Shown here piece by piece: positions 48,555 through 59,096 of a stretch of 64,000 nucleotides of DNA. Position numbers and translations under genes: made by a program. The stretch covers positions 1 to 64,000 of the forward strand of contig JANWZE010000035.1 of assembly GCA_025054955.1 (NCBI GenBank). Direction: 5' to 3'. Source of the stretch: Blastocatellia bacterium (GTDB lineage Bacteria > Acidobacteriota > Blastocatellia > HR10 > J050). Each line of letters starts with the position of its first letter. Position 1 is the first letter of the stretch. The notes under the pieces were generated by a model. It did no database searches and was not told where the DNA came from. It saw only the letters and a program-made list of their open reading frames with translations.

Positions 48555-48633
48555 GGTAAAATCCGCGACTGGTTTACGTAATCTTACTGATTCTCACCGA
48601 CAGGCTCTTATGAGAGAATCAAGCTGCACCGGA
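48555..48633 (+). promoter_or_regulatory. Shared upstream element, copy 1
   Basis: About 79 bases that align with 56249-56328 at roughly 70 % identity with one gap. The best parts are GGTAAAA, TTACGTAAT, ACTGATT, TATG.GAGAAT and GCACCGGA. TTACGTAA is a palindrome. It stands 55 bases before the sigma factor ATG. It is probably a promoter with an operator. Confidence 0.55.
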
Positions 48634-48687: not shown

Positions 48688-49272
48688 ATGCCCACTCACC
48701 TGAGCGGTACCGTTGCCGAATTCGCTGTGCCGGTCTTTTTTCCTGGAGACAGCTATCAACACCACACGGATGCCGAGCTGATCGAACGCTGTCTGCAACG
48801 CGATGAACAAGCCTGGCAATCATTGCTCAACCGATATGGCAGCTTCGTTTACTCCATCATCACACGCTTCAACCTCATGGCGGATGAGATGGCTTACGTG
48901 TTTCAGGCCGTGTTCCTTTCTGCACTGGACAACTTGCAAGAACTGGTTCATGAGCCAAATTTGAGCACGTGGTTCACAACAATCACCCTATGGTACTGCC
49001 GACAATATGCCGAACCGGACCAGGCGGACGAGATACTAGCAATGGATGAGACGTCGGCTCTCTACCAAGAAATTGAGCAGTTGGAAGAGCAACGCTCGAT
49101 GCAGCAAGCATTGGCTTCGATGCAGGAACCAGCGCGACGGGCATTGTTCGAATTACTCAATTGGTTGGATGACATCAGCGTTACTCAAGCATCATCGCTC
49201 GGAAACGAAGACCCTGCCATGCTAATGGCTAAAAAAGAAAATATCATTAAGGAGCAGCTCCATGAACTGTAA
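48688..49272 (+). CDS. ECF-type RNA polymerase sigma factor, divergent
   Basis: 194 aa from ATG 48688, with AAGGAGC upstream; a longer reading frame upstream contains the conserved promoter-like element and is rejected. Region 2 is recognisable: LIERCLQRDEQAWQSLLNRYGSFVYSIITRF, then LSTWFTTITLWYC. Region 4 (ALASMQEPARRALFELLNW...) is weak: its helix-turn-helix is hard to see. It overlaps the next gene by 11 bases. Its small zinc-motif neighbour and the TPR-CHAT protease suggest a controlled sigma-factor switch. Confidence 0.8.
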   Translation: MPTHLSGTVAEFAVPVFFPGDSYQHHTDAELIERCLQRDEQAWQSLLNRYGSFVYSIITRFNLMADEMAYVFQAVFLSALDNLQELVHEPNLSTWFTTITLWYCRQYAEPDQADEILAMDETSALYQEIEQLEEQRSMQQALASMQEPARRALFELLNWLDDISVTQASSLGNEDPAMLMAKKENIIKEQLHEL

Positions 49273-49885
49273 ACAACTCGACTCATTATTCCACACAAGC
49301 GATCCCTTGTTGGTAGCAGACATTCAACGACAAATTGATTCACACATTGCTCACGGGTGCGTGGCATGCCGGCAACGGTTGCAGCGCATCAAGGAGGTTC
49401 TCAGCCAGCGCGACCGCTGCCTTTTGTTACCTATGCCAACATGGTTAGCGGAGCAAGCAATGGGTTTGTTCCGCTGGAAGCAGATGCCGTCAACACCGGC
49501 GGACATAAAGCGCCTGCCCGCTCTACTCCGCCTCGACAGCGCCACGCACGGCCAAGTGGCTGGGTTCCGCAGCATTGGCACAATGTCGCGCCAGTTGCTC
49601 TATCAGGCGGGCAATTACAACGTGACCCTGTTACTGACGGCAGCAGGCCCGCAATTGGTGGACATCATGGGTCAGCCAATGCCTCATGACGTTGAGAGTC
49701 AACCGATCCGCGATGTGGATGTCGCATTACTGGCTGAGTCGGATGTTGTGTGCACAGCCAAATCAAATGAGTTCGGTGCCTTCATCCTCAACGGCATCGC
49801 CGAAGGCATCTACAATCTGCGAATGAGATTAGCAGAAGAAGTACTAGAGATCATCGGCCTACATGCAACGGTGAAGCCTCACTGA
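49262..49885 (+). CDS. Small zinc-motif protein, possible anti-sigma factor
   Basis: 207 aa. The N-terminus has HIAHGCVACRQRL, close to the H-x3-C-x2-C motif of ZAS anti-sigma factors. No membrane helix is present, so it would be cytosolic. The C-terminal 70 residues (VDVALLAESDVVCTAKSNEFGAFILNGIAEG...) resemble a carboxypeptidase-regulatory-like beta sandwich. The start codon lies in the stop region of the sigma gene, which implies coupled synthesis at a fixed ratio. It is a candidate for the substrate of the CHAT protease encoded next. Confidence 0.7.
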   Translation: MNCKQLDSLFHTSDPLLVADIQRQIDSHIAHGCVACRQRLQRIKEVLSQRDRCLLLPMPTWLAEQAMGLFRWKQMPSTPADIKRLPALLRLDSATHGQVAGFRSIGTMSRQLLYQAGNYNVTLLLTAAGPQLVDIMGQPMPHDVESQPIRDVDVALLAESDVVCTAKSNEFGAFILNGIAEGIYNLRMRLAEEVLEIIGLHATVKPH

Positions 49886-49914
49886 GGCTGTTCGGATTGA
49901 CCAGGAAGATTCCC

Positions 49915-52830
49915 ATGGAGCACGGGTTCGGTAGCGAGTCATTGACAGAGCAGTTGATCGCATTGGCCGGCAGCCACCCGGTCGCCGATGTGCTTGAGCG
50001 GCATCGTGAGCAGATTACTGCTGATCTGATCCGACGATTCAAGGACAAAGTGGCGCATGCTATCCGCGCCGACATCAACCGCGCGACTCAACTGGCTCAA
50101 CTGACCTGTCAGGCAGCCATGATGACGGATGATCCAATTTGTCACGCCCTCGCTCATCACTCGATGGGTATGTCCAAACACTTTTCCGGGCGCTACGCCG
50201 AGGCCGTTGCATCTTACGAACAGGCTGAGGCGATCTACGCCCAGCTCGGTGATGAAGTGGCAGCAGCGCGCGTCGGTCGCGCCAAAGTTGATGCTTTGAT
50301 CTATCTGAGCCGCTACGATGAAGCATTGCAATTGGCGGCGCAGGCGCGGTCTATATTTGCGCGGCACAGCGAAAACAACCTGCTGGCTCAACTCGAGATG
50401 AATGTTGGGAACATCTATCATCGCCTCGATCAGTATCACCAGGCATTGGAACATTATGAGCGTGCCGAGAAAACATTCGCCCGACTGGACAATGCGTTTG
50501 ACTTGGCGCAAGTTTGGATGAACCAAGCCAATCAGTACACTCAGTTAAACGACTTTAATAAAGCGCTCGACCTCTATGAGCGGGCTCATCGGCAATACGA
50601 GAAGCTCCGGATGCCATTGATGGTGAATCAGGTTGAGTACAGCATTGCCTGGCTCCATTTTCTGCGCGGGAATTTCAAACAAAGCCTAACACTGTTTGCC
50701 AAGAGCAAGGCCAAAGCCTTGGAGCTTGGTGATGTCACGTTGCCGATTCTGTGCGACCTGGATCAGGCGGAAGTCTATCTGCAACTGAACGCCTATGAAG
50801 ACGCTATCGAATTTGCGCAACGTGCGGCTGAGCAATTTCACCAGCTCGGAATGAATTACGAATTTGCCAAAGCTCGCATGTACGTGGGCATGGCCTACCT
50901 GCATCTGAATAACTTCGACGCTGCCCAAACGGCGCTGCGGCAGGCGCGGGATGCGTTTGTCGTCGAGCACAACGACATTTATGTCGCGCTGACCAATATC
51001 TACCTGAGCGATGTTGTCGCGCACAAACACGATTGGACACAGGCGCAGCAATTATGCGCGGAGGCCAAAGCGTTATTCGTTGCACATAACCTCACCACGA
51101 AGGTCGCCTATGCAGACCTGCAAATGGCGCGGCTGAAATTCCTGCAAGCAGACCTTCAAGCAGCGGAAGCGCTCTGCGGCGCGGCGCTGAACGCGCTCGG
51201 CCAGATGGAAGCGCCATGGGTCAAATATCAATGCTTTCATCTGCTGGGTAACGTGCTGCACCGGCGCGGTCAACATCAAAAAGCATACGACTATTACCGG
51301 CAGGCGATTGATTATCTGGAAGCCATGCGCAGCAGCATTCGCGTGGACGAATACAAATGTTCATTCCTCAAGGATAAGCTCCGCGTCTACGAAGACCTGA
51401 TCGAACTCTGCTTGGCAACAGATCAGCACAATAAGCTAGAGGAAGCATTCACGAACATCCAAGCAGCCAAATCACGCTCGCTGGTCGAACTGCTCGCCGT
51501 CGAGCGAGACATCCGCGGCAAGGTACATGACGCATCGGTTGAAGCCCTCTACCGCGAGTGGAATCGCATCCGCGAAGAGCTCGATTTTTATTACAGTCGC
51601 ATCAATCAATATCAAAATCATGGTCAGCGCCCAGCATGGATGGGAACAGAGCTGCAAAAGGAAGTGCAAGAACGTGAGCAACAACTCGCCAGACTCGCCC
51701 GCCAGTTGCGTCTGCAAGACGCTGAGTACGCTTCGTTACATACCACGACGCACATAGATATGGACCGGGTGCGTCACCACTTGGCCGACGATGAGGTATT
51801 GATCGAATACTTCATGCTGAACGACCGGCTCATGGCTTTTGTGCTTGACCGCAATGATGCTCGCTTGGTCAATGACGTGACGAATCTAACAACAACGGCG
51901 CCTCTTCTGCAGTGGGTCAGGTTCTACAATGAACAATGCACGATGGCGGATCGCCTGTCGCCAGCACAATTGGCGCAAGCGGCGACCATGCAACGTCAAT
52001 GCCTGGAAAAACTCTATGCCCACCTTATCGCGCCGATTGAGCCGCTGATTGACGGCAAGAAGCTGATCATTGCGCCGCACGGCTTCTTGCACTATATCCC
52101 TTTTCACGCTCTACATGATGGTCAACAGTTCCTCATTGATCGTTACGAAATCTCCTATTGTCCCAGCGCCAATGTATTCACGTTGTGCACGGAGAAAGCG
52201 CGAACCCAGTCGGCTGGCGATGACATGTTAATCCTTGGCATTTCTGACGAAGCCGCGCCGCTGATTCGTGATGAAGTACAAGCAGTCAAATCGCTCTGGC
52301 CGAAAGCGCGGCTGTTCATGGATCGTGACGCGACATTTGAACGCCTGCAACAGCACGCGCCAACGGCCCGTTGGCTGCATTTGGCGTCTCACGGGACGTT
52401 CCGTCGGGATAATCCGATGTTCTCGACGCTCAAACTGAGCAACCGATGGCTCAATCTGTATGATATTTTCAATTTGAACTTGAATGCCGACTTGGTCACG
52501 CTCAGCGCTTGCGAAACCGGGATGAATGAGGTTTTCCCCGGCGACGAACTGTTTGGTTTGATACGCGGATTCTTATATGCCGGCGCGCCATCGTTGATCG
52601 TCAGCCTGTGGGTTGTGCATGATCGCTCAACCACTGAATTAATGTGTCAGCTCTACACCGGCCTGCGGCAGGGTATCTCCAAGCGCGCTGCTCTCCGTCA
52701 GGCTCAGTTAACAGTCAAAGAAGCGTTTGAGCACCCGTATTATTGGGCTCCGTTCATCTTGGTCGGAGCAACGGCTTGCGTGCCGTCGCAAAATAAGCAG
52801 GCCAAGGAGAAAATAGCGCCATGGCATTGA
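49915..52830 (+). CDS. TPR-CHAT protease
   Basis: 971 aa from ATG 49915 with AGGAAG upstream. Residues about 60-470 are tetratricopeptide repeats (at least nine, e.g. the YAEAVASYEQAEAIYAQLGD and YHQALEHYERAEKTFARLDN units), then a coiled-coil-like helical linker (about 530-630). The C-terminal CHAT domain (about 690-965) is a caspase-like fold with catalytic His826 in LASHGTF and Cys866 in LSACETG, both present. It should be a cysteine protease whose activity is controlled by the repeats. The ECF sigma and zinc-motif genes lie directly upstream; two S8 peptidases follow. Confidence 0.93.
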   Translation: MEHGFGSESLTEQLIALAGSHPVADVLERHREQITADLIRRFKDKVAHAIRADINRATQLAQLTCQAAMMTDDPICHALAHHSMGMSKHFSGRYAEAVASYEQAEAIYAQLGDEVAAARVGRAKVDALIYLSRYDEALQLAAQARSIFARHSENNLLAQLEMNVGNIYHRLDQYHQALEHYERAEKTFARLDNAFDLAQVWMNQANQYTQLNDFNKALDLYERAHRQYEKLRMPLMVNQVEYSIAWLHFLRGNFKQSLTLFAKSKAKALELGDVTLPILCDLDQAEVYLQLNAYEDAIEFAQRAAEQFHQLGMNYEFAKARMYVGMAYLHLNNFDAAQTALRQARDAFVVEHNDIYVALTNIYLSDVVAHKHDWTQAQQLCAEAKALFVAHNLTTKVAYADLQMARLKFLQADLQAAEALCGAALNALGQMEAPWVKYQCFHLLGNVLHRRGQHQKAYDYYRQAIDYLEAMRSSIRVDEYKCSFLKDKLRVYEDLIELCLATDQHNKLEEAFTNIQAAKSRSLVELLAVERDIRGKVHDASVEALYREWNRIREELDFYYSRINQYQNHGQRPAWMGTELQKEVQEREQQLARLARQLRLQDAEYASLHTTTHIDMDRVRHHLADDEVLIEYFMLNDRLMAFVLDRNDARLVNDVTNLTTTAPLLQWVRFYNEQCTMADRLSPAQLAQAATMQRQCLEKLYAHLIAPIEPLIDGKKLIIAPHGFLHYIPFHALHDGQQFLIDRYEISYCPSANVFTLCTEKARTQSAGDDMLILGISDEAAPLIRDEVQAVKSLWPKARLFMDRDATFERLQQHAPTARWLHLASHGTFRRDNPMFSTLKLSNRWLNLYDIFNLNLNADLVTLSACETGMNEVFPGDELFGLIRGFLYAGAPSLIVSLWVVHDRSTTELMCQLYTGLRQGISKRAALRQAQLTVKEAFEHPYYWAPFILVGATACVPSQNKQAKEKIAPWH

Positions 52831-52990
52831 ACAGCATTCGGCATAGCTATCTCACAACACATCCGCGCGCACACCGACGAGGCGTAACGGGAACCTCCCA
52901 CATTTTTGTCTCGTTGCGCCTCGTCGGCTGCTTGCCGATACTACACCAATGCCCGCAGGTCGGACAGGAAGATTTAGAGGGGTCATAGCC

Positions 52991-54208
52991 ATGAAACACC
53001 AATCAATCATAAAAACACTGTCAACACTTTTGATTGCGATTGTAGTCACATTGGCGTTCATCGGTGGCGGCAGTTCCTGGCCGCCTACCATCCATGCGCA
53101 ACGTGGCCTGAGAGCGCCGCACACCAATAACGAGGTTGTAGTGAAACTAACGCCTCAGGCCAACGCCAAACTGTTCGCTCAACAGCATCGGCTCATCGCG
53201 AAACAACGAATCAAAGCCAACATCTACTTATTCGAGATGCCCGCCAACGACTCACGATCCGTGCAAGATGTGGTTGATCAGGTAACTCGAGACCGGAATA
53301 CTATCTGGGCCGAGCCTCATTTTCTGGCCAGCATTGACCAGGATGAGGGCGATACGGATTCTGACCAGCGCAGTGGAGCGAGCGTTGATCAGCGCAATAC
53401 ACCATTTGTGGATGGTCAATCGCCGCCAAGCTATTTTGGGCAAAACGCGCTTTCGCTCATCCGCGCCCAGCACGCTCGTCAATATGCCAGCGGCGCAGGC
53501 GTTATTGTGGCCGTGATTGACACGGGCGTGGACGCTTCCCATCCGGCCATTGGCGCTATCTATCCAGGATGGGATTTCGTCAATAACGACGCAGACCCGT
53601 CAGAGGCAGGCACAGGTCCAGCTTATGGTCATGGCACGCACGTGGCCAGCATCATCAAATTGATTGCGCCGGGAGCGGTCATCATGCCACAACGTGCATT
53701 CAAGGCTGACGGAAAAGGGAAAACAGCGGACATTGCCAACGCGATCTACAACGCCGTTGATTACGGCGCTCAAGTGATCAACATGAGCTTCAGCATGACC
53801 ACCAACTCATCGAATATTCGAGAGGCTGTTGCCTACGCTGCCAATCATGGCGTAGTGCTGGTTTCGACGGCGGGCAACACTGGCACATCGGCAGTGCGCT
53901 ATCCGGCCTTTTATCTGGGTGTCATCGGTGTGGCAGCGACCGACGAGTACGATCGGCGAGCGAGCTTTTCCAGTTATGGAGTGCATGTTCGAGCCTCGGC
54001 GCCGGGCGTCGGCATTTACGGCGCGTATCCTGGCAATCAGTGGGCGTGGTGGAGCGGAACGTCGTTTGCCGCGCCGATGGTTAGTGGGCAAGCAGCCTTA
54101 CTCATCTCGCGGGGTCGTTCGACAAACTACATTTTCACCACCGCCGTCCCGCTGCCAGACAGCGGCATGGGGAGCGGACGCATTGATTGCCTTGCGTCAG
54201 TTCAATGA
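52991..54208 (+). CDS. Secreted S8 (subtilisin-like) peptidase, copy 1
   Basis: 405 aa. Signal peptide (residues 1-37, ending near IHAQ). A prodomain of the fervidolysin type (NEVVVKLTPQANAKLFAQ...) and then the catalytic domain follow. The triad is Asp177 (VIDTGVD), His214 (HGTHVAS) and Ser358 (SGTSFAAP), and the oxyanion Asn lies in STAGNTG. AGAGGGG precedes ATG 52991. It is very similar in architecture to the next gene, so this is a tandem duplication. Confidence 0.9.
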   Translation: MKHQSIIKTLSTLLIAIVVTLAFIGGGSSWPPTIHAQRGLRAPHTNNEVVVKLTPQANAKLFAQQHRLIAKQRIKANIYLFEMPANDSRSVQDVVDQVTRDRNTIWAEPHFLASIDQDEGDTDSDQRSGASVDQRNTPFVDGQSPPSYFGQNALSLIRAQHARQYASGAGVIVAVIDTGVDASHPAIGAIYPGWDFVNNDADPSEAGTGPAYGHGTHVASIIKLIAPGAVIMPQRAFKADGKGKTADIANAIYNAVDYGAQVINMSFSMTTNSSNIREAVAYAANHGVVLVSTAGNTGTSAVRYPAFYLGVIGVAATDEYDRRASFSSYGVHVRASAPGVGIYGAYPGNQWAWWSGTSFAAPMVSGQAALLISRGRSTNYIFTTAVPLPDSGMGSGRIDCLASVQ

Positions 54209-54241
54209 ACACCCGACAGAAGTCAATCAAGGAGGTTTGGC

Positions 54242-55504
54242 ATGAAAACAACAACCAGAAAAGCACAGGCCTTCCCGATGGTCAAACAAGCCATCATCAA
54301 GATGCAAGCCCTCACGATGCTGACGGTGGTAATGCTTGTCACTTTGACCTTGACTTCAGCCCCATTGCCTGAAGCTGACAACTTGAATACAACCGCGCAT
54401 GCGCAACGCGAGCGAGTGATGCTCTATGTCAACAACCAACTCCTCGTCAAGTTGTCAGCAGAAGCGCAGGCCAAACCGTTCGCCCAACGATATGGCCTGA
54501 CGCTCAAGCGACACATCAAGGCGAATCTGCATCTGTTCGAGATCGCCGCCGCTGATGTCACATCGGTCGAAGACCTTGTTGCTCATGTCAAACGAGACCG
54601 CGATGTCATCTGGGCCGAACCGAATTATCTGGCCAAGCTGGATCAAAACACAGATCAATTGCCCGACCCTTCGGTTGATCAACGTCACGTGCCACGTGTG
54701 AGTGACCGACTGCCGTCGGAGCATCTGAGGCAGTATGCCATCACCCAAGTCAAGGGTGAGCAGGCGCACCATTACTCAACAGGAGCGGGTACCTGGGTCG
54801 CCGTGATTGACACAGGAGCTGATGAATCACATCCGGCCATCAGGCAAGTGATCCAACCGGGATGGGACTTTGTGAGTGACGATGATGATCCTTCGGAAAG
54901 TGGTCACGGCAGCAGCTATGGCCATGGAACGGCTATCGCCAGCGTCATCCATCTGATCGCTCCCGATGCGACGCTCGTCGCCTACCGAGCGTTCAACGCG
55001 GACGGCTTAGGAACGGCAGCCGACATTGCCAGCGCGATCTACGACGCTGTGGACTATTACTGGGTTGATGTGATCAACGCCGGCTTCAGCATCCCGGTGG
55101 ATTCCTCTACGCTCAGCGAGGCCATTGAGTATGCTCGCCAACGCGGTGTTGTACTGATCGCTTCAGCCGGCAACGCAGCCGAGCGAGCAGCGCGCTATCC
55201 GGCGATCTACGCCGGCGTCATCGGTGTAGCAGCAACCGACTCAACAGACCGACGAGCCCCATTTTCAAATTACGGAGCCGGCGTTGACGTAGCGGCACCG
55301 GGCGTCAACATTCATGGCGCGTATCCCGGCAATCGCTGGGCCCGGTGGAGTGGAACCTCGTTGGCCACAGCGTTGGTCAGTGGCCAGGCCGCTCTGATTC
55401 TGGCAGAAGGGCGCTCAATAGACGTGATGAGTCGCACGGCCGATCCCGTTGTTGACACGGAGCTGCGAGCAGGGCGAATTAACTGCCTGCGCGCTCTTCA
55501 ATAA
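54242..55504 (+). CDS. Secreted S8 peptidase, copy 2
   Basis: 420 aa with AAGGAGG before the ATG. Signal peptide, prodomain and catalytic domain as in copy 1. The triad is Asp190 (VIDTGAD), His228 (HGTAIAS) and Ser373 (SGTSLATA); the second His of HGTH is Ala here, and the region after Ser is ATALVSG instead of AAPMVSG. All catalytic residues are present, but these changes may alter activity. Confidence 0.9.
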   Translation: MKTTTRKAQAFPMVKQAIIKMQALTMLTVVMLVTLTLTSAPLPEADNLNTTAHAQRERVMLYVNNQLLVKLSAEAQAKPFAQRYGLTLKRHIKANLHLFEIAAADVTSVEDLVAHVKRDRDVIWAEPNYLAKLDQNTDQLPDPSVDQRHVPRVSDRLPSEHLRQYAITQVKGEQAHHYSTGAGTWVAVIDTGADESHPAIRQVIQPGWDFVSDDDDPSESGHGSSYGHGTAIASVIHLIAPDATLVAYRAFNADGLGTAADIASAIYDAVDYYWVDVINAGFSIPVDSSTLSEAIEYARQRGVVLIASAGNAAERAARYPAIYAGVIGVAATDSTDRRAPFSNYGAGVDVAAPGVNIHGAYPGNRWARWSGTSLATALVSGQAALILAEGRSIDVMSRTADPVVDTELRAGRINCLRALQ

Positions 55505-56248
55505 TGGCTGGATACTGTTCGTCAACTGTACAACATTAAGGTGAGCGTCAAACTCGCCGATAGAACCTGCGAAATACCCAATCACGATCTGCTTATAACA
55601 ACGGTAGGGGGCGCGGCCTCCGAGCGCTCGTCAGCGGGATGGATGAGCGCTCGGAGGCTTCATAATGATAGGTTGTCCGGTCGCGCCGGGTACGTGCTCG
55701 GAGGCTTCATGAGGATAGGTTGTCCGGTCGTGATAAACGAGCAGTCGGATGTTTCGTGCCGATAGGTTGCGCGGTCGTGCCGGCCAACTTCGTTGAGAAT
55801 CAATGCTGAGTAGTTACCAATGCAATCATGTCCCCCTTCACACCAATAGTCCGGCGAAAGGCCCTATGTGATGAAGCGATATGGAGAGCAGCAGCAGAAC
55901 GTTCCAAGCGGCAGTCTACGGTCTTGTGTGGGTATTTGGGATTACTCATGCTACGCTCGTTCCTGCTGAGCCGCGCAAGCGGCGCATGAAAGGGTAGCCG
56001 ACGTGCAACGTCTGGCTACCCTCTAGTAGGCGGCTGCCGCTGCTCGGAGCTCGATCGTTAAAAACGCCAAACTTCAGCGGGCATCCACACAGCCACACCC
56101 CTACAAAGAACATGGGTCTTTCCACAATTGGTATCACATCGCTGATGGCAGCTTTGATCAATCTCTCATCCGTTCTTGCTTGCGGCCATGCCGAACGACA
56201 CAGCGGATACTCTTACTTTTGTTGTAGTCCATCTTCACACGAGCTCTA
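55505..56248. other. Intergenic stretch with hairpins and a short tandem repeat
   Basis: About 740 bases. A 13-bp inverted repeat CCTCCGAGCGCTC/GAGCGCTCGGAGG (55617-55629 with 55645-55657) is followed by three imperfect repeats of about 45-47 bases that include GCTCGGAGGCTTCAT and GATAGGTTGTCCGGTCG (55649, 55696 and 55741). Another hairpin, AGGGTAGCC/GGCTACCCT with an inner ACGT stem, lies at 55991-56022. No gene is seen. Confidence 0.7.
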
Positions 56249-56328
56249 GGTAAAACCGCCGAGCAGCTTACGTAATTTCACTGATTGTAGCCAACGGCGC
56301 ACTATGCGAGAATAGTGCTTGCACCGGA
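56249..56328 (+). promoter_or_regulatory. Shared upstream element, copy 2
   Basis: Counterpart of 48555-48633. It stands 63 bases before the histidine kinase ATG. The shared core includes TTACGTAAT, ACTGATT, TATG.GAGAAT and GCACCGGA. Confidence 0.55.
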
Positions 56329-56390: not shown

Positions 56391-59096
56391 ATGAATGGCT
56401 CAACGCAACAGACAACCGTCAGCTCCTCGCCTAGTGCTGGTGGAGCCAATCCTGCGGTTCCTGATGCCATTAAAACCGTCCCTGCAGTCACACACGAACG
56501 CATTCTTCAGCGAACCGGCCGAATCGTGGAACGCAGTAAACAAGTATCGGTGTTGTATGCGATTGCCTCGTCGGTGAGTCAATCACTGGATTTTCAGCAG
56601 ACGTTGAATCGAGCTGTTGAGCTGGTTCCACGTCTGATGGGCTTTGAAGCAGGCCTGATTTTGCTCACCGATAAAACATCGGATGCGCTCACGCTCAAAG
56701 CGCGATTTGGTTTTTCAGACGAAGCAGGTTCGTTTATCCAATCGTTGAATCCCAAGGAGCAATTCATTGGCCCATCTGTCATCACCGGCGAAACGCTCAT
56801 TGGTGAAATTCCTCGCCAGAGTCATGACCTGCTGGCAACTCACCTGCGCGAGAGAGGCTTCTGGTTCTTTGTGACGATCCCGCTACGATCCAAAGGAAGC
56901 ACGTTGGGGGTGATGGTGCTGGTCAGCCATGGTCCTCGACACGTTGACCCAGAAAGCAGCCAATTTCTGCTTTCTATGGGCGATGTCATCGGTGTGGCGA
57001 TTGAAAACGCGAGCCTTTATCACGACGTTGCTAACTTGCTCGAGGAAACACAACGGCAGGCCAATCGGCTGCAAGAATCGGAGCGCCAATCACGAGCGAT
57101 TGCCGAACTGGGACAACAAGCGTTAGCCGGCGTTGACCTCTCGACGTTAATGAACGAGGCGACAACGCTCATCGCCAAAACACTGGATGTCGAATATAGC
57201 GGCGTGCTCGAACTCATGGAGAACAAAGAGACGCTGCGGATTCGCGCCAGCGCAGGCCCACTCGCTCAGATGATTACCCAAACGATGATCCCTGTGGACC
57301 GCTCGCAGGCCGGCTATGCGCTACGGACGAATCGGCCCGTCATTGTCGAAAACCTCGCCACAGACCCGCGCTTTACTCAGCAGACTCGACTTCATGAGCT
57401 TGGTGTCGTCAGTGGCATGAGCGTGGTCATCCCCGGCCATCATCAACCATTTGGCGTGCTCTTCGCGCATACAACGAACCGGCGAACATTCACCAAAGAT
57501 GACACCAACTTCTTACAGAACATAGCCCATATACTAGCTGAAGCGATCGAGCGCAAGCGAACCGAAGAAGCGCTCGAAGCTGAAAAACAACGTCTTTCTA
57601 TCACCTTGCGTTCGATTGGCGACGGCGTCATCACCACCGACACGCAAGGATGTGTTGTGTTAATTAACAAAGTGGCGGAGATGTTGACCGGCTGGACTCA
57701 GCAAGAAGCTGTAGGACAGCCCTTGAGCGCCATCTTGCGCCTTCTCGATGAGAAGACCCACGAATTGTACGGCAATCCAGCCACCCAGGTGTTACAAACG
57801 GGAACCCGAGTGACACAAACAGAGCCGATCACCATGGTGGCCAGGGATCAAACACGCTACATCATCACCTACGAAAGCAATCCGATTGTCGAGCGAGATG
57901 GCAAAATTGTTGGCACGGTCTTGGTCTTCCGCGACATCACTGAAAAACAACAGATGGAATACGAGCGGCTCAAGGCTCAGAAGCTCGAATCAATTGGACT
58001 GTTGGCCGGCGGCATTGCTCATGACTTTAACAATCTACTCATGGCGATCATGGGCAACATTTCTCTGGCCAAAATTGAGGCCGAAGGAGACGAGAAATTG
58101 GTGGACCGTTTAACTGCTGCTGAACGCGCTTGTTTGCAATCGAAGAACCTGACGCATCAGTTGCTCACCTTCTCCAAAGGTGGAGCGCCGATCAAGAAAA
58201 CGACTTCGATGGTTGGCCTGATCAAAGACACGGCTGAATTTGCGCTGCGTGGCTCAAATGTGCGCTGTCAGTTTGTCATCGCTGATTCACTCTGGCACGT
58301 GGAAGCCGATGAAGGACAAATCAGTCAGGTCATTCAAAACCTGATCATCAATGCCATGCAGGCTATGCCAGATGGCGGAACAATCACGGTGAGCGCCGAG
58401 AATGTCCATCTGGAGCCCAATACTACGTTGCCACTGCCTGGTGGTCGTTATGTCAAAGTCGTCGTCAAAGATCACGGAGTCGGTATTCCACCAGAAAATA
58501 TCACTAAGATTTTCGACCCGTACTTCACCACCAAGAAAAAGGGCAGCGGCCTTGGGCTGGCTGCCGCCTATTCAATTGTCAAGAAGCATGACGGGTTTAT
58601 CGGTGTCGAGTCTGAGGTGGGTGTCGGTTCAACGTTCACTGTTTATCTGCCGGCCACGACTAAATCCGTAACATCGGCCAAGCCGCCCTCGGTGGCGCCG
58701 ACACAGGCGCAGGGGAGTGGACGTATTTTGGTCATGGACGATGAGCAAATCATTCGCGATGTCACCGGCCACATTCTCCGACGGTTGGGCTACGAAGCTG
58801 CGTTCGCCCAAGATGGCGAAGAGGCGATCACGGCCTATCAGCAAGCGATGGCTGAGAATCGTCCATTTCAGGCAGTTATTATGGACCTGACTATCCCCGG
58901 CGGCATGGGCGGAAAAGAAGCGATTAAACGATTGCGTGAAATAGACCCCAGCGTCAAAGCCATTGTCTCCAGCGGATACTCGAATGATCCTGTCATGAGC
59001 AACTTCACGGAGTATGGATTTTCTGGGTGCGTTGCCAAGCCCTACAACGTACAGGAGCTCAGTCACACTCTACAGAAAGTTATCAGCGGAAATTAG
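56391..59096 (+). CDS. Hybrid histidine kinase with two GAF, one PAS and a receiver domain
   Basis: 901 aa. GAF domains lie at about 45-210 and 240-400, a PAS domain at about 410-530, and the kinase dimerisation region contains the phosphorylatable His544 in GGIAHDFNNLL. The ATPase domain has QNLIINAMQ (N box) and GLGLAAAYSIVKKHDG, and the C-terminal receiver has Asp832 in AVIMDLTIPGG. No membrane segment is seen, so it would be cytosolic and sense small molecules or redox state via GAF/PAS. No cognate regulator gene adjoins it. An AGGA lies upstream of ATG 56391. Confidence 0.94.
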   Translation: MNGSTQQTTVSSSPSAGGANPAVPDAIKTVPAVTHERILQRTGRIVERSKQVSVLYAIASSVSQSLDFQQTLNRAVELVPRLMGFEAGLILLTDKTSDALTLKARFGFSDEAGSFIQSLNPKEQFIGPSVITGETLIGEIPRQSHDLLATHLRERGFWFFVTIPLRSKGSTLGVMVLVSHGPRHVDPESSQFLLSMGDVIGVAIENASLYHDVANLLEETQRQANRLQESERQSRAIAELGQQALAGVDLSTLMNEATTLIAKTLDVEYSGVLELMENKETLRIRASAGPLAQMITQTMIPVDRSQAGYALRTNRPVIVENLATDPRFTQQTRLHELGVVSGMSVVIPGHHQPFGVLFAHTTNRRTFTKDDTNFLQNIAHILAEAIERKRTEEALEAEKQRLSITLRSIGDGVITTDTQGCVVLINKVAEMLTGWTQQEAVGQPLSAILRLLDEKTHELYGNPATQVLQTGTRVTQTEPITMVARDQTRYIITYESNPIVERDGKIVGTVLVFRDITEKQQMEYERLKAQKLESIGLLAGGIAHDFNNLLMAIMGNISLAKIEAEGDEKLVDRLTAAERACLQSKNLTHQLLTFSKGGAPIKKTTSMVGLIKDTAEFALRGSNVRCQFVIADSLWHVEADEGQISQVIQNLIINAMQAMPDGGTITVSAENVHLEPNTTLPLPGGRYVKVVVKDHGVGIPPENITKIFDPYFTTKKKGSGLGLAAAYSIVKKHDGFIGVESEVGVGSTFTVYLPATTKSVTSAKPPSVAPTQAQGSGRILVMDDEQIIRDVTGHILRRLGYEAAFAQDGEEAITAYQQAMAENRPFQAVIMDLTIPGGMGGKEAIKRLREIDPSVKAIVSSGYSNDPVMSNFTEYGFSGCVAKPYNVQELSHTLQKVISGN

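Follow-up and report, generated by a model that had tools for sequence, protein, structure and literature searches.

The ECF54 group of extracytoplasmic function (ECF) sigma factors is reportedly set in context by Huang 2015 and Casas-Pastor 2021. Conserved carboxypeptidase, subtilase and CHAT genes accompany its members, which are listed as controlled by proteolysis without an anti-sigma factor (PMC8999054). In type III-E CRISPR systems the TPR-CHAT protease Csx29 cuts the anti-sigma factor Csx30 in a small flexible loop (PMC10028731); CalpL, a SAVED-Lon protease triggered by cA4, cuts the anti-sigma factor CalpT, freeing an ECF sigma factor (PMC11417357); and separase, which needs an arginine at P1, cuts after it in unstructured segments of its substrates (PMC10317155). 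The window analysed here, which comprises positions 1 to 64,000 of contig JANWZE010000035.1 of a Blastocatellia bacterium (Acidobacteriota; assembly GCA_025054955.1), carries a cluster of genes for an ECF sigma factor, a small protein of 207 residues, a TPR-CHAT protease and two S8 peptidases. This locus is probably one copy of a conserved regulated-proteolysis switch in which the CHAT protease cuts an anti-sigma factor and frees the sigma factor. An earlier note, made from the sequence of the window, had proposed these five genes, and they are present as described (Table 1), all on one strand and with all frames open, with His826 and Cys866 of the CHAT domain and the S8 triads intact. Its claim that CRISPR effector and array are missing from the locus also holds: an array search found no CRISPR array in the 64-kb window, and a check of its open reading frames (ORFs) found none of effector size and no known kind that might be a candidate for Cas7-11. 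Genes for cas1 are present on other contigs of the same genome.

Conservation of the gene order in relatives had been named beforehand as the refuting test, and the order proved to be conserved. Matches to the 207-residue protein occur in 22 of the 58 genomes searched, with seven loci of the family in the genome of the window itself, and nearly all of these matches are surrounded by the same genes. Among 69 non-redundant loci flanked by at least 5.5 kb on each side, a CHAT gene lies within 5 kb of the small-protein homologue in 65, and both a CHAT and an S8 gene are present in 61; the chance of a CHAT neighbour is about 2% (about 10 CHAT matches in 4.7 Mb of the window's own genome). The order sigma-inhibitor-CHAT-S8 is the commonest (48 loci), but the partners stay the same in several permuted or divergent arrangements. 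Public genomes scanned with the sigma factor yielded the set in Acidobacteriota, Chloroflexota, Burkholderiales, Rubrobacter, Phycisphaerae and Armatimonadota, and a separate search of Actinomycetota added further loci from that phylum, for a spread over at least six phyla (Acidobacteriota, Chloroflexota, Burkholderiales lineages, Actinomycetota, Planctomycetota and Armatimonadota). Because a region 4 pattern served as the seed of the sigma scan, conservation of region 4 is biased in that scan; the loci retrieved through the small protein are free of this seed. The four-gene set of sigma factor, soluble inhibitor, separase-like protease and secreted protease is widespread and CRISPR-independent.

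The small protein belongs, as judged by sequence comparison, to an anti-sigma family, which supports the earlier casting of it as the restrainer of the sigma factor. The RsrA model is matched by 16 of 33 family members, the anti-sigma model NF052375 by 13 (best 1.9e-12) and zf-HC2 by 10; the family profile, run against solved structures, finds RsiW (2e-7), DdvA (4e-5) and also ChrR. By itself, the window protein matches no anti-sigma model; its membership of the family is by phmmer. Cysteines and a histidine in the N-terminal half form the motif Cys...His-x(3-4)-Cys-x2-Cys; a CarboxypepD_reg/transthyretin-like beta-sandwich makes up the C-terminal half. The predicted structure (pLDDT 87) has four helices, a loop at residues 93-108 and then strands. 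His28, Cys33 and Cys36 (His27, Cys32 and Cys35 of the trimmed row) are invariant in alignment A2. The earlier note had named the protein by its zinc motif, but this motif proved dispensable: its ligands have disappeared from many Chloroflexota, Burkholderiales and Pyrinomonadaceae, so that zinc is not the essence. No strong membrane segment was found in the small protein or in the TPR-CHAT protein. A fold search with the 207-residue model returned weak Ig-like matches only, and no Csx30.

The CHAT domain of the protease is recognised by Pfam at E=5e-66 (223.5 bits against a cut-off of 24), together with many TPRs, and its His/Cys dyad is kept in all 110 relatives that cover both sites. Its likeness to Csx29, also claimed earlier, gains support from the Csx29 model, although the score of 74.7 bits lies below the cut-off of 300, and from Foldseek matches of the predicted structure (pLDDT 89) to human separase (4e-17), Csx29/Craspase (5e-17) and, lower in the list, DdvA (5e-11). 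DdvA is the CHAT-bearing transmembrane anti-sigma factor of Myxococcus xanthus, and DdvS its sigma factor; the literature searched, of incomplete coverage, yielded nothing relevant in the way of earlier work on DdvA. In the small protein, the arginine at position 103 is kept in 126 of 127 relatives, the exception having an arginine one residue further on. The structure model places Arg103 in the loop between the two halves, in a linker that varies in length and sequence and mostly reads G-x-R-[S/G]. It is proposed as the CHAT cleavage site, where the cut would fall after the arginine.

Which part of the anti-sigma factor the protease acts on is indicated by exchanges of domains. In six Chloroflexota loci, the same sigma factor is followed by a FecR-domain protein instead of the inhibitor with a beta half; in five of the six this protein has a zf-HC2 half that is recognised, together with a membrane helix. 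None of the six loci yielded a beta domain or a CHAT gene; in three of them (L102, L107 and L135) the examined flank is short. Well-supported branches of the sigma tree force at least three separate changes of this kind. Since the beta domain and CHAT come and go together, the comparison points to the beta half of the anti-sigma factor, or its linker, as the target of CHAT. It also suggests that, when half of the inhibitor is swapped, a single sigma family can be switched from internal signals to those of the envelope.

The working of the switch, from sigma binding through cutting and its site to release and output, is what we infer from these observations. At rest, the ZAS-type helical half of the soluble anti-sigma factor would keep the ECF sigma factor bound. 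The TPR-CHAT protein, a bacterial relative of separase and Csx29, would sense a cytoplasmic signal with its TPR solenoid, and its activated Cys/His dyad would then cut the anti-sigma factor in the loop between its halves, most likely after Arg103 (between GxR and [S/G]). The cut would destabilise the anti-sigma factor and set the sigma factor free to drive genes whose products are secreted or lie at the surface, chiefly the gene of the neighbouring S8 peptidase. The S8 domains of both window peptidases score far above the Pfam cut-off and both proteins have signal peptides; S8 catalytic residues are intact in nearly all loci, and a hydrophobic N-terminal segment is found in 89 of 103 S8 proteins. 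The CHAT and FecR variants alike repeatedly have DUF5666 proteins or domains, and three paralogous loci of the window's own genome (L053, L054 and L055, on contigs C103, C100 and C21) have Tad/TadE-like pilus genes next to the sigma gene or separating inhibitor from CHAT. These associations suggest that the system controls exported proteins. The two S8 peptidases of the earlier note are both real and have their triads; as a pair they are not typical, one S8 per locus being the rule and the second S8 of the window a local addition. In a metagenome-assembled Aquabacterium genome (L150:3301-5439), a TPR-S8 fusion ORF, which may be real or an assembly joint, follows the anti-sigma gene, and CHAT is missing.

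Several observations weigh against this scheme. A CHAT gene is absent within 5 kb in four of the 69 well-flanked loci (L084, L191, L193 and L194), the CHAT gene of L191 being present slightly beyond that distance. Many Chloroflexota have no zinc ligands, and Burkholderiales and Pyrinomonadaceae have a shorter N-terminal half, so that sigma binding is uncertain in those lineages. The cut site in Csx30 has no essential residue (PMC10028731); Csx29 is therefore no precedent for arginine specificity. Nor is there a clear match to the aspartate that binds P1 arginine in separase: Asp903 of the CHAT domain is conserved in 109 of 110 relatives, but it lies 37 residues from Cys866, against 41 in human separase (Cys2029 to Asp2070), and was not assigned as the pocket residue. 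Two-box and k-mer searches in front of about 100 sigma genes, judged against shuffles or expectation, gave no convincing common promoter motif, and autoregulation is thus not supported. Finally, the window sigma factor is without region 4, which makes the last step of the switch doubtful in this copy.

This last point raises the chance that the window holds a decaying or repurposed paralogue, whose sigma factor does not work and whose protease and anti-sigma factor serve another sigma factor in trans, or nothing, to a little short of even. The gene had been called a sigma gene, and this stands to the extent that region 2 is recognisable (Pfam E=0.003; NCBIfam ECF models reach 5e-11); there is no match to region 4, and the copy looks degenerate. 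Relatives have both regions, and the region 4 motif, nearly universal elsewhere, is lost in the window sigma factor and in that of a paralogue on contig C77. In the tree the two pair as sisters with branch lengths of 1.45 and 1.52, about four times the median of 0.36; the anti-sigma branch of the window copy is about twice its median and the TPR-CHAT branch is of ordinary length. Several intact paralogues are present in the same genome. A frameshift as the cause of the loss was rejected, no intact helix being found in other frames. The window copy may no longer drive transcription. Against decay stand the five open frames, the intact active sites, the absence of a frameshift and the translational coupling: the sigma and small-protein ORFs overlap by 11 bp, and the TPR-CHAT gene follows after a gap of 29 bp with a good ribosome site. 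The protease of the window copy is still constrained.

Two explanations concern the switch as a whole. In one, which we regard as improbable, control is not proteolytic: the TPR-CHAT protein would bind the beta half and change the conformation of the anti-sigma factor, and the dyad would serve another substrate, either the S8 enzyme or some other cell protein. In DdvA a single transmembrane chain (8rot) contains both a CHAT-type domain and a ZAS half, so that CHAT can be an anti-sigma module rather than its destroyer, and the conserved arginine could be a docking residue; however, the dyad is kept without exception, as in an active protease, and Csx29 and CalpL are proven anti-sigma proteases. 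The other, to which we give slightly less credence still, is the ECF54 model as published, in which there is no anti-sigma factor and the neighbouring proteases hold the sigma factor inactive by degrading it. It is so stated for ECF54 (PMC8999054), and the proximity of CHAT and S8 genes is indeed conserved. Yet the family to which the "carboxypeptidase" neighbour belongs has an anti-sigma half, and its beta domain is only of a regulatory type; the S8 enzymes mostly have an export signal and cannot easily reach a cytosolic sigma factor; and where a transmembrane FecR protein takes the place of the beta half, CHAT is gone too and the sigma factor stays. A conflict or cell-death module is very unlikely; in it, CHAT and S8 would be effectors that attack phage or the cell itself, and the sigma pair would set only their dose. 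Proteases of both kinds are known from defence systems, and PADLOC gave weak matches to S8 models. However, none of its defence models fits the set, the matches to TPR and subtilase models being generic; nearby genes in the window have housekeeping roles (glutamate and threonine synthase, for example); the S8 enzymes are exported; and regulation accords better with seven related loci in one genome and with stable chromosomal conservation over phyla.

Table 1. Features of the locus and its flanks (window coordinates)
Feature	Position	Strand	Remarks
TTACGTAATCTTACTGATT upstream element	48574..48592	+	shared with kinase gene at 56391
Sigma gene	48688..49272	+	194 aa; ribosome-binding site AAGGAG; degenerate ECF sigma, region 2 kept, region 4 lost
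Small protein gene	49262..49885	+	207 aa; soluble anti-sigma family; helical ZAS-like half and beta-sandwich half
Arg103 codon	49568..49570	+	proposed CHAT cut site (after Arg103); 126/127 conserved; loop in model; cleavage predicted
TPR-CHAT protease gene	49915..52830	+	971 aa
Catalytic His826 codon of TPR-CHAT	52390..52392	+	110/110
Catalytic Cys866 codon of TPR-CHAT	52510..52512	+	110/110
Hairpin between CHAT and S8 genes	52874..52927	+	19-bp perfect stem; no T-run; single copy in genome; RNA fold z=-5.65
S8 peptidase 1 gene	52991..54208	+	secreted; triad intact; ORF from 52949, ATG at 52991 the better start
S8 peptidase 2 gene	54242..55504	+	secreted; paralogue of S8 peptidase 1; triad intact
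GAF-PAS hybrid histidine kinase gene	56391..59096	+	suggested place in system

The flanks of the five genes hold further elements. The sequence TTACGTAATYTYACTGATT has only two exact matches in the genome, one before the sigma gene (48574-48592) and one before the kinase gene (56268-56286), and none of 100 shuffles of the window reaches two matches. Related kinases directly follow CHAT in L051, L059 and L062, and membership of the GAF-PAS hybrid kinase in the system is offered as a suggestion. Sigma70-like boxes followed by GCACCGG are present here as well and, by eye, are shared with the promoters of the C77 and C103 paralogues. The strong hairpin between the CHAT and S8 genes, for which an Rfam search gave a chance miRNA match only, may separate transcripts, so that a single transcript is not assured. 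Downstream of the S8 genes, at 55649-55777, lie three degenerate direct repeats of 35 nt with 47-nt spacing; they were rejected as a CRISPR array, being too few and too uneven.

If the favoured switch operates as proposed, a catalogued but unexplained ECF54 neighbourhood becomes a concrete, testable device, with a named anti-sigma factor, enzyme and residue; it would offer a plausible non-CRISPR counterpart for CRISPR-linked TPR-CHAT/anti-sigma/sigma circuits, and bacterial gene control would be added to the reach of separase-like signalling proteolysis directed at arginine. A bolder proposal, that an ancient, CRISPR-independent, separase-like TPR-CHAT protease cuts a dedicated soluble anti-sigma factor after a near-invariant arginine and that type III-E recruited its Csx29/Csx30/sigma module from such a switch, is rather unlikely as a whole.

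The neighbourhood and its association with CHAT and S8 are already published as ECF54. As there, an ECF sigma factor has "carboxypeptidase", subtilase and CHAT neighbours for which proteolysis is proposed, all partners being present in 61 of 69 loci, Actinomycetota included; the likeness is judged from the described neighbours. Unlike in the published group, the neighbour here is a member of a family that has an anti-sigma half, with a predicted cut site, and the spread extends well beyond Actinomycetota. As far as an incomplete literature search goes, the novelty lies in recognising the "carboxypeptidase" as an anti-sigma protein, in the exchanges for FecR, in the arginine that hardly varies and in the range of phyla. 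With type III-E Csx29-Csx30-CASP-sigma the locus shares a TPR-CHAT protease of similar predicted CHAT fold, a small inhibitor and an ECF sigma factor; it differs in having no Cas7-11 or array, no detected relationship to Csx30, a longer TPR part and an S8 partner, and the Csx30 cut needs no particular residue, in contrast with near-invariant Arg103. DdvA (PDB 8rlz, 8rot and 8rw5) likewise joins a ZAS anti-sigma half to a CHAT protein, as one transmembrane polypeptide, whereas here the soluble anti-sigma factor and TPR-CHAT are separate genes, and the match to DdvA is limited to the ZAS half of the small protein. In CalpL/CalpT/CalpS a regulated protease also cuts an anti-sigma factor to free an ECF sigma factor, as predicted here, but CalpL is an enzyme unrelated to CHAT. 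The soluble ZAS factors ChrR and RsrA have an N-terminal sigma-binding ZAS half, as is predicted for the small protein, but sense through redox or a cupin and have no dedicated CHAT protease. Eukaryotic separase, finally, resembles the TPR-CHAT protein in combining helical repeats with a caspase-like fold and cuts after arginine in an unstructured region; it differs in its substrate, cohesin, and in its motif, ExxR rather than the GxR found here.

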